NCBI GenBank assembly: GCA_030630935.1
Contig: DAOVMD010000182.1
Location: 1-6,496 of the forward strand
DNA: 6,496 nt
DNA from: Candidatus Mcinerneyibacteriota bacterium
Lineage (GTDB): Bacteria; AUK180; JAQVHJ01
Reading direction: 5' to 3'
The notes beneath the pieces are model-generated. The model ran no database searches. It was not told where the DNA came from and was given only the letters and a program-made list of their open reading frames with translations. The position numbers and the translations under genes are program-made. Shown piece by piece: positions 5,451 through 6,496 of the stretch. Within the stretch, counting starts at the first letter, position 1, and each line of letters starts with the position of its first letter.

Positions 5451-5485
5451 AAGGTAAAAGTTAAATTGTTTAAGTGTTCAAGACC

Positions 5486-5497
5486 TGCTTTGCATGC
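5486..5497 (+). repeat. Short GCATGC hairpin, degenerate copy 1
   Basis: TGC-TTT-GCATGC: the right arm GCATGC (5492-5497) is intact, while the left arm has decayed to ACCTGC (5483-5488). It occupies the same slot relative to the 20-nt palindrome as the better-preserved copy at 5619-5633. Confidence 0.55.
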
Positions 5498-5507
5498 GTT
5501 CAAAAGT

Positions 5508-5535
5508 TATTGTAGAGACGTGCCACGGCACGTCT
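5508..5535 (+). repeat. Palindromic repeat copy 1 (20-nt palindrome with 8-nt left flank)
   Basis: The palindrome AGACGTGCCACGGCACGTCT (5516-5535) has 9-nt arms around AC; as RNA it could form an 8-bp stem with a CACG loop. The preceding TATTGTAG is also conserved, giving a 28-nt block identical in all three copies of the window. Just downstream is ATGGTTAAAT, with no T-run, so it does not look like a standard intrinsic terminator. Confidence 0.85.
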
Positions 5536-5618
5536 ATGGTTAAATCGTTTAAATGTTAAATAAAATGTTCAAGTGTGCGGAAGTTGCGATAGTTCAATAG
5601 TTAAAGTGTTTTATAAGG

Positions 5619-5633
5619 GCATGCTTTGCATGC
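5619..5633 (+). repeat. Short GCATGC-TTT-GCATGC hairpin, copy 2
   Basis: A perfect 6-nt inverted repeat with a TTT loop. GCATGC is itself self-complementary, so each arm is also a small palindrome. It is preceded by TTTTATAAGG, a lead-in shared by copies 3 and 5 (TTTTATAAAG). Confidence 0.75.
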
Positions 5634-5642
5634 GTTAAAGTG

Positions 5643-5670
5643 TATTGTAGAGACGTGCCACGGCACGTCT
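5643..5670 (+). repeat. Palindromic repeat copy 2 (20-nt palindrome with 8-nt left flank)
   Basis: TATTGTAG followed by the same 20-nt palindrome (5651-5670) as copy 1. The following GATAGTT (5671-5677) is shared with copy 3, making 35 identical bases between these two copies. Confidence 0.85.
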
Positions 5671-5701
5671 GATAGTTAAATTGTTCAAAAGTTTTATAAA
5701 G

Positions 5702-5716
5702 GCATGCTTTGCACGC
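5702..5716 (+). repeat. Short GCATGC hairpin, copy 3 with one arm mutation
   Basis: GCATGC-TTT-GCACGC: the right arm carries a T-to-C change. It follows TTTTATAAAG as in the other copies. No 20-nt palindrome follows within this part of the island; the next bases are GTTCAAGAATTATTGTTGATTGG, so the third round appears cut short or decayed. Confidence 0.65.
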
Positions 5717-5789
5717 GTTCAAGAATTATTGTTGATTGGTAATTAAAATAAAATAAAATTTTATAGTAAGGAATGTCGATATAAGTAAA

Positions 5790-5810
5790 AGCATTGGACT
5801 ATATAATGCT
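5790..5810 (-). terminator. rpmB: Weak candidate terminator hairpin downstream of rpmB
   Basis: Read on the minus strand, AGCATT, a 9-nt loop and AATGCT are followed by TTTACTT, which gives a short hairpin with a T-rich tail about 100 nt past the rpmB stop. The stem is only 6 bp with two G-C pairs, so it is weak; this is listed because no better terminator exists for rpmB in the spacer. Confidence 0.2.
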
Positions 5811-5855
5811 AATCAATTATCAATTAATAATTAGAAATCGTGAATATTAAATGCT

Positions 5856-5876
5856 GAGCACAGCGAAGTTGTGTTC
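5856..5876 (+). repeat. Stem-loop with GAA loop and G-U pairs
   Basis: GAGCACAGC-GAA-GTTGTGTTC can form a continuous 9-bp stem in a plus-strand transcript if two G-U wobbles are allowed. On the minus strand the same two positions become A-C mismatches, so if it acts as RNA the plus strand is favoured. There is no T-run after it. Confidence 0.4.
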
Positions 5877-5909
5877 ACTGTTATCTGCTCTCTGATATCA
5901 GTTCTCTGC

Positions 5910-6119
5910 TTAAACAGTAGGTTTGCTTATACTTGGTTTGACAACTTTACCTTTCTTGATACACTTTGTACATACTTTAATATACTTAGGTTTTCCGTCG
6001 ACTAGTGCTTTAACTCGTTGAAGATTCGGTAAGCTGCGTTTTTTTGTCTTTCTATGTGAGTGAGAAACATTGTTCCCGACTAAGGGTCGTTTTCCACAAA
6101 TTGAACATACTTTTGCCAT
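5910..6119 (-). CDS. rpmB: 50S ribosomal protein L28 (zinc-binding form)
   Basis: 69-residue bacterial L28, a component of the large ribosomal subunit. The start [12 protein letters not shown] and the segments [20 protein letters not shown] (15-34) and [11 protein letters not shown] (49-59) are classic for the family. Two CxxC pairs (C5/C8 and C50/C53) mark the zinc-ribbon 'C+' form. Start: the frame is open further upstream to 6152, but the ATG at 6119 is preceded at seven nt by GGAGGC and yields the standard MAKVC start. The gene stands alone: it is not followed by rpmG and converges on the five-gene run. A well-formed promoter lies about 40 nt upstream. The lysine-rich composition is normal for a ribosomal protein. 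Identification is near certain. Confidence 0.97.
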
Positions 6120-6126
6120 TATTATT

Positions 6127-6132
6127 GCCTCC
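6127..6132 (-). promoter_or_regulatory. rpmB: rpmB Shine-Dalgarno site
   Basis: GGAGGC on the minus strand, seven nt before the ATG at 6119. This is the strongest ribosome-binding site in the window and it decides the 6119 start over longer upstream openings of the frame. Confidence 0.85.
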
Positions 6133-6158
6133 ATTAAAGTTACATAAAACAATTTTGA

Positions 6159-6187
6159 ATTATAACATAGAATTTAAGATAAATCAA
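6159..6187 (-). promoter_or_regulatory. rpmB: Sigma70-type promoter of rpmB
   Basis: On the minus strand, TTGATT (6182-6187) is followed after exactly 17 nt by TATAAT (6159-6164), a perfect -10 with a 4/6 -35. Transcription would start near 6152, giving a leader of about 33 nt that holds the GGAGGC site. The leader is too short for a riboswitch. In lineages such as Bacteroidota the housekeeping promoter consensus differs, so the canonical form is mild evidence against that phylum. Confidence 0.75.
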
Positions 6188-6258
6188 GTGATTTTTTCAT
6201 TTATTACAAGGTCAGGATACGGGAGAACATGAATAGTTAAATGGTTAAAGTGTTCAAT

Positions 6259-6273
6259 GCATGCTTCGCATGC
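6259..6273 (+). repeat. Short GCATGC-TTC-GCATGC hairpin, copy 4
   Basis: Perfect 6-nt arms, with the loop changed from TTT to TTC. The lead-in here is GTTCAAT rather than TTTTATAAAG. Confidence 0.7.
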
Positions 6274-6304
6274 GTTCAATAGTTCAAGTGTTAACAAAAC
6301 CGTT
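6274..6304 (+). repeat. Direct repeat, first copy (70-nt offset)
   Basis: This segment, from GTTCAATAGTTCAAGTG to AACAAAACCGTT, recurs at 6344-6374 with one mismatch (T/C at 6291/6361). The two copies bracket the 20-nt palindrome at 6320-6339. Confidence 0.8.
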
Positions 6305-6311
6305 TAAGTGC

Positions 6312-6339
6312 TATTGTAGAGACGTGCCACGGCACGTCT
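6312..6339 (+). repeat. Palindromic repeat copy 3 (20-nt palindrome with 8-nt left flank)
   Basis: TATTGTAG plus AGACGTGCCACGGCACGTCT (6320-6339), identical to the copies left of rpmB about 0.7-0.8 kb away. It is followed by GATAGTT as in copy 2. Confidence 0.85.
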
Positions 6340-6343
6340 GATA

Positions 6344-6374
6344 GTTCAATAGTTCAAGTGCTAACAAAACCGTT
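6344..6374 (+). repeat. Direct repeat, second copy (70-nt offset)
   Basis: Second copy of the 31-nt segment at 6274-6304, with one mismatch. It lies just after the 20-nt palindrome. Confidence 0.8.
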
Positions 6375-6477
6375 AAAATGTTTAACAAGTTTTGATAATT
6401 TAATAGTTCAAATGCTAAAAAGATGTTCAAGTGTTAAGGATGTTGAGATAGTTAAATGGTTCAAGAGTTTTATAAAG

Positions 6478-6492
6478 GCATGCTTTGCATGT
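6478..6492 (+). repeat. Short GCATGC hairpin, copy 5, at the window edge
   Basis: GCATGC-TTT-GCATGT: the last base of the right arm is changed. It is preceded by GTTTTATAAAG as in copies 2 and 3, suggesting another full round of the composite repeat begins here and continues beyond the window. Confidence 0.6.
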
Positions 6493-6496
6493 GTTA

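Follow-up and report, generated by a model that had tools for sequence, protein, structure and literature searches.

A dispersed intergenic mosaic of directional octamer arrays and GTAG-REP-like palindromes in an uncultured bacterial lineage

We report that the repeats on either side of rpmB in a contig of 6,496 nucleotides (the window) belong to a dispersed, genome-wide family and are not a local duplication. The family consists of directional arrays of 8-nt words that carry a GCATGC hairpin and a GTAG-tagged palindrome in two fixed slots and in one orientation; it is strongly biased towards intergenic DNA, its palindrome has the layout of a REP element and occurs also outside the arrays, and the genome encodes two RAYT-like genes. 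Sequence comparison leads us to regard it as a new family of GTAG-REPs embedded in an unusual, strictly directional two-slot octamer mosaic. The account that we favour with moderate confidence is that of a noncoding mosaic with two engines: the words of the array scaffold would slip or recombine with one another, so that it grows and shrinks, and a RAYT (an HUH/Y1 transposase), at present or formerly, would have moved the palindrome in trans in the form of single-stranded hairpin DNA.

The prevailing view is that RAYT enzymes disperse REPs as inverted pairs. A strictly head-to-tail family in an uncultured lineage, slotted into octamer arrays, provides a natural experiment on whether a REP can spread singly and whether it requires a RAYT.

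Two repeat arrays flank rpmB

The window comprises the whole of contig C260, from an assembly of 3.16 Mb in 471 contigs that is 80% complete. Its plus-strand genes encode a family-5 solute-binding protein, an O-antigen ligase-like protein, a GH18 protein, an HD phosphohydrolase and a UDP-sugar dehydrogenase, while rpmB (ribosomal protein L28, with an L28 Pfam match; ATG near 6119, stop at 5910) lies on the minus strand at 5910-6119. The initial annotation treated 5456-6496 as a single repeat block; there are in fact two separate arrays with rpmB between them. Array 1 (5456-5731, plus strand) is a directional array of GTT(C/A/T)AA octamers with two GTAG palindromes and three GCATGC hairpins, and is situated where the UDP-sugar dehydrogenase gene and rpmB converge, between their 3' ends. 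Array 2 (6226-6496) is of the same kind and on the same strand, has one palindrome and two hairpins, lies upstream of rpmB and runs off the contig end. A promoter-like site of rpmB, TTGATT-17-TATAAT, is found between the gene and array 2 (6159-6187, minus strand; a consensus match only). The sequence and the repeat search agree with the earlier description in that the same elements, in common order and on a common strand, stand on both sides of rpmB, which itself is on the minus strand.

A 28-nt block, TATTGTAGAGACGTGCCACGGCACGTCT (TATTGTAG plus AGACGTGCCACGGCACGTCT), is present in three identical plus-strand copies at 5508-5535, 5643-5670 and 6312-6339, each including a 20-nt near-palindrome (5516-5535, 5651-5670 and 6320-6339, respectively). 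The first copy is followed by ATGGTTAAA and the other two by GATAGTT, and copies 2 and 3 are thus identical over 35 nt, as had been noted. The five hairpins of the window, all on the plus strand, are of the GCATGC-TTY-GCATGY type: a degenerate one (GACCTGCTTTGCATGCGTT) at 5482-5500, GGCATGC-TTT-GCATGCGTT at 5618-5636, GGCATGC-TTT-GCACGCGTT at 5701-5719, TGCATGC-TTC-GCATGCGTT at 6258-6276, and GGCATGC-TTT-GCATGTGTT at 6477-6495, at the contig end. The spacers are filled with GTT(C/A/T)AA words at 8-nt spacing and, as the initial annotation observed, are less well kept than the palindrome core. Since the units have diverged, TRF detects the arrays weakly.

Between array 1 and rpmB, a module of purine/pyrimidine words (TGTTATCTGCTCTCTGATATCAGTTCTCTGC, TRF period 14) that carries a terminator-like hairpin lies directly against the rpmB stop (5852-5909); related CAGAGAACAGATATCAGAGAA words recur genome-wide beside CAGTCGTTTTATAG.

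Unit structure and strand

The scaffold, a directional array, consists of 8-nt words (GTTCAANN) grouped into units of roughly 44 or 52 nt with the plan GATAGTTCAANNGTTCAANTGTT - slot 1 - GTTTAANTGT - slot 2, each starting with GATA/ATGG-GTTCAANNGTTCAA. Units that hold neither module mostly measure 42-46 or 50-54 nt, those with either a hairpin or a palindrome mostly about 58-69 nt, and those with both mostly 73-85 nt. In the middle slot (slot 1) a GCATGC-TTY-GCATGC hairpin may replace a stretch like AATAAAAC, and in the last slot (slot 2) the GTAG palindrome replaces a stretch like GCGGAAGTTGA (11 nt) and is thus not a clean insertion. In each of 21 palindrome-bearing units only 0-1 nt separate the end of the palindrome from the following unit. 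Within arrays the hairpins (56:0) and the palindromes (28:0) follow the strand of the GTTCAA words, with none inverted; all four close palindrome pairs are head-to-tail, and no inverted palindrome pair was found within 500 nt on the contigs analysed.

This strand constancy and the exact slots (21/21) would fit a history with no transposase, in which array segments were copied from one intergenic site to another together with their hairpins, through recombination, gene conversion or a switch of template at palindromes, the palindrome being a passenger and a joint. The positions of the palindromes also fit such copying, as they sit at joints to different downstream modules, and the STAR elements (PMC3532100), which are interspersed intergenic direct repeats, offer a parallel. 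Fixed slots and a single strand thus favour recombination copying inside the arrays. On the other hand, about 40% of the palindromes are found outside the arrays, in unrelated flanks, where they still have the one-sided GTAG tag known from RAYT-linked REPs, and unrelated genomes that lack the arrays have the same stem plan (see below). The extra-array copies point to mobile REPs, as does the one-sided tag, and transposase-free copying, the main rival, is possible as the whole explanation but rather unlikely; a mixed history of REP mobility and array copying is likely.

Dispersal, gene context and the question of a host function

At up to three mismatches the 28-mer matches 51 places and the 19-nt hairpin 126 places in the 3.16 Mb assembly, while the reversed patterns match none; GTTNA(A/G) words at a spacing of 8 number 446 against 11 in the reversed sequence. 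With copies of both modules on some 100 contigs, a duplication restricted to the surroundings of rpmB is rejected. The palindrome centre is CATGG in 28 copies and CACGG in 13 genome-wide, and all three window copies share the minority CACGG form, which makes some local or subfamily copying likely; as the sole origin of the repeats, local duplication has next to no probability. The initial annotation had reserved this reading for the case of few copies, or of copies within genes at chance frequency; copies are many and strongly intergenic. With the exact 24-mer no match was obtained in viral contigs, and with array 1 none against plasmids.

For gene context 120 contigs were used (0.92 Mb including the window), among them every contig listed for a palindrome match and most of those listed for a hairpin match; as the contigs were mostly picked for carrying copies, the densities cannot be extrapolated to the genome, and ratios within the set are usable. 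Open reading frames of at least 90 aa, predicted with a simple caller, cover 82.5% of the bases. Only one of 55 strict palindromes, two of 77 hairpins and none of 77 arrays are inside such frames. No gene was called on one side of 23 of the 55 palindromes, which lie near contig ends, consistent with repeats breaking assemblies; the family may thus help explain the fragmentation into 471 contigs.

The bias out of genes, which the initial annotation had proposed to measure, is strong; orientation relative to genes gave no such signal, since arrays between co-directional genes are evenly oriented (8 same, 12 opposite). This even split speaks against a host function of the hairpins, whether as RNA 3'-end hairpins or as sites for a nucleoid protein, gyrase or another DNA-binding protein. 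If the arrays have any preference, it is for divergent gaps, upstream of genes, which hold 20 of 44 arrays but make up 28% of the gap length (p = 0.012, without correction), and 3'-end processing does not fit with this. There is neither a T-tract after the palindromes nor a terminator-like site on them, and transcription terminators were rejected as a candidate; two terminator-like matches are located elsewhere, at 5852-5877. The modules are restricted to a lineage, and no known RNA family was matched in Rfam at E <= 1. In favour of a host function, single-stranded DNA folds are stable both for the palindrome (-8.3 kcal/mol, z -4.7; 8-bp stem and 4-nt loop) and for the hairpin (-5.8 kcal/mol, z -3.6; 6-bp stem and TTT loop), stems stay paired through double changes, and the palindrome core has changed less than the spacers. 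Taken together, we regard maintenance for a host function as improbable.

The GTAG palindrome as an independent REP-like module

The palindrome has the layout GTAG-AGACGTGC-CAYG-GCACGTCT (24 bases). A looser scan of the 0.92 Mb gave 72 palindromes; GTAG directly precedes 63 of them and GTAG, GTAT or ATAG precede 67, whereas CTAC follows only two, so that the tag is one-sided. Octamer words (at least two within 40 nt) surround 38 of 61 strict palindromes, against a background of 1.6% of positions. Four kinds of flank were distinguished: octamer arrays; CCCCAATA/CTATAAAACGACTG (also CAGTCGTTTTATAG with CCCCAATA); a position before CGATGAAATAATTTAAAA; and solitary copies. On its left the neighbouring sequence usually has TATT or TATC at its end, on its right the sequence varies by class, and the palindrome thus sits at joints between modules. 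It is an independent module, present outside the arrays as well as in them.

Other modules were also observed. CAG(T/C)(C/T)GTTTTNTAG is dispersed in 52 copies in the 0.92 Mb (e.g. L154:3377-3391, L204 and L190) and is followed by many different modules, among them other GTAG palindromes; the genome's intergenic DNA is a mosaic of modules in varied combinations. A second GTAG-like REP candidate, CAGTAGGGGCGACCGGCCGGGCGCCC, occurs after CAGTTGTTTTATAGATGG (L128 and L130).

Among known systems the closest are the GTAG REPs, which are characterised by a one-sided GTAG tag and a short stem, often with a 2-4 nt loop (Di Nocera 2013, PMC3733652). A Stenotrophomonas REP, TGTAGAGCCGAGCCCATGCTCGGCT (Nunvar 2010, PMC2817692), has the same layout as TGTAGAGACGTGCCATGGCACGTCT. 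Common to both families are the GTAG head on one side, an 8-bp stem, a 4-nt CATG/CACG loop, a length of 24-25 nt, tens of intergenic copies, and stem variants that stay paired. In the home genome both sides have changed in 20 stem cells, at pairs 1, 2, 5 and 9; many of these represent one inherited variant (AATT centre), and the independent events are therefore probably only about four or five. Different self-complementary stems occur in other genomes (see below). Thus the defining features of GTAG REPs that we tested, a short palindrome (20-40 nt) with GTAG at one end only, extragenic copies (about 70) and stem variants that keep pairing, are all present, and with this hallmark in the palindrome the original guess of a REP was right.

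The family differs from the GTAG-tagged REPs in being head-to-tail only, an arrangement that is absent or under-represented among their pairs (PMC3733652), in its fixed octamer-array slots, in that no REP-flanked RAYT was seen, and in its stem, which does not appear in the text of those papers. No record of the stem sequence was found in searchable literature text, including the text of the GTAG-REP papers, and for GTAGAGACG the 20 papers listed out of 143 were all unrelated. The initial annotation knew of no matching named family, which agrees with this search as regards the sequence itself but does not hold for the super-family of GTAG-tagged REPs (PMC3733652).

It had further suggested a recently spread REP/REPIN- or MITE-like element. 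The REP-like part of this is borne out by the dispersed, intergenic, palindromic copies with a one-sided GTAG; the other two parts are not. REPINs (PMC3116915) resemble the family in their many REP copies, possibly moved in trans by a RAYT. However, a REPIN is an inverted REP pair in one hairpin; no inverted pair was found here, the 4/4 close pairs are head-to-tail, and REPINs were rejected. MITEs are likewise short, noncoding and dispersed, but have 15-30 bp terminal inverted repeats around a body of 70-300 bp; they were rejected as there was no inverted palindrome pair within 500 nt and we saw no longer unit bounded by terminal inverted repeats. Enterobacterial BIMEs are, like these arrays, intergenic mosaics with REPs and short motifs in a set order, but their REPs alternate in orientation while all are direct here (28:0 on the same strand in arrays), and this organisation was also rejected. 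The STAR elements of staphylococci share with the arrays interspersed intergenic direct repeats, recurring spacers and a variable number per locus, and their mechanism of spread is not established (PMC3532100). They are 14-bp GC-rich direct repeats, unrelated in sequence to the 8-nt AT-rich words and two hairpin modules described here, and the STAR motif T(G/A/T)TGTTG(G/T)GGCCC(C/A) is absent from the arrays that were read.

Comparison across genomes

Short runs of GTTCAA octamers are present in three genomes of the same class, with 28 (G002), 8 (G003) and 15 (G005) pattern matches; in these the palindrome was not found and the hairpin only once, in G003. A genome of the same family (G001, 72% complete) has neither octamer runs nor hairpin modules by these patterns. 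The scaffold is thus distributed more widely in the class than the hairpins, and to judge from this distribution the hairpin modules look like later additions to the octamer scaffold.

We also searched 290 genomes with the wider pattern TGTAGAGACG-N(4-20)-CGTCT. The GTAGAGACG-N-CGTCT plan, with other self-complementary stems (e.g. TGTAGAGACGCAAGATATTGCGTCT, TGTAGAGACGTTGCAATGCAACGTCT and TGTAGAGACGCACCATGGTGCGTCT), has at least three matches in nine other genomes, all of unrelated bacteria (G066, G070, G099, G237, G111, G051, G261, G215 and G081).

GTTCAA octamer runs were also seen in an unrelated genome (L271 of G113), and other short intergenic word runs such as CTCAACTCTCAATT, TCTAACCTC and GACTCTGGACTCTGG adjoin GTTCAA runs there and in G005 (L274 and L284).

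Candidate transposases

The initial annotation proposed a search for a RAYT or IS200-type transposase with matching ends. Two RAYT-like genes (L075 and L076) are present, with the HUH and tyrosine motifs visible in their translations; they score 67.7 and 41.5 bits with the NCBIfam REP_Tyr_transpos model, both below the cut-off of 80. In REP/RAYT systems the RAYT gene stands between two REPs of one type in inverted orientation. No palindrome copy was seen beside either of these genes as far as their contigs reach: none on both sides of L075 and none downstream of L076, the upstream flank of which is lost at a contig end of the 80%-complete assembly. That no RAYT gene was seen next to any copy fits the transposase-free copying discussed above. 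Across the 290 genomes, Y1 transposases and GTAGAGACG palindromes were not significantly associated (8/10 against 163/280, p = 0.21), and the palindrome-rich G099 and G237 gave no Y1 transposase match.

With no flanking copy on the contigs available, scores below the cut-off and no significant tie to Y1 transposases, spread by a RAYT is preferred but unproved. Also against it are the replacement of 11 nt in slot 2, in place of a clean insertion, and the strict head-to-tail order, which known GTAG REPs do not have. Its putative substrate would be the single strand GTAG-AGACGTGCCATGGCACGTCT (top strand TATTGTAGAGACGTGCCATGGCACGTCT). We infer that a RAYT was the mover and slippage the engine of the arrays, and that the elements would have no host function. 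More doubtful is a reading in which a GTAG-REP lineage became locked into the two-slot directional unit; hairpins and words would then have spread together as a satellite-like array, and GTAGAGACG-N-CGTCT would represent a REP super-family of unrelated bacteria, part of which would have been kept without a Y1 transposase.

A third Y1 fragment in the genome, of the IS200 type (L074), is broken by another repeat: at L074:480-1210 the transposase gene is interrupted and flanked by a different repeat family (CTCCGTAGGAGC; TACAAAGATATCGCTC).
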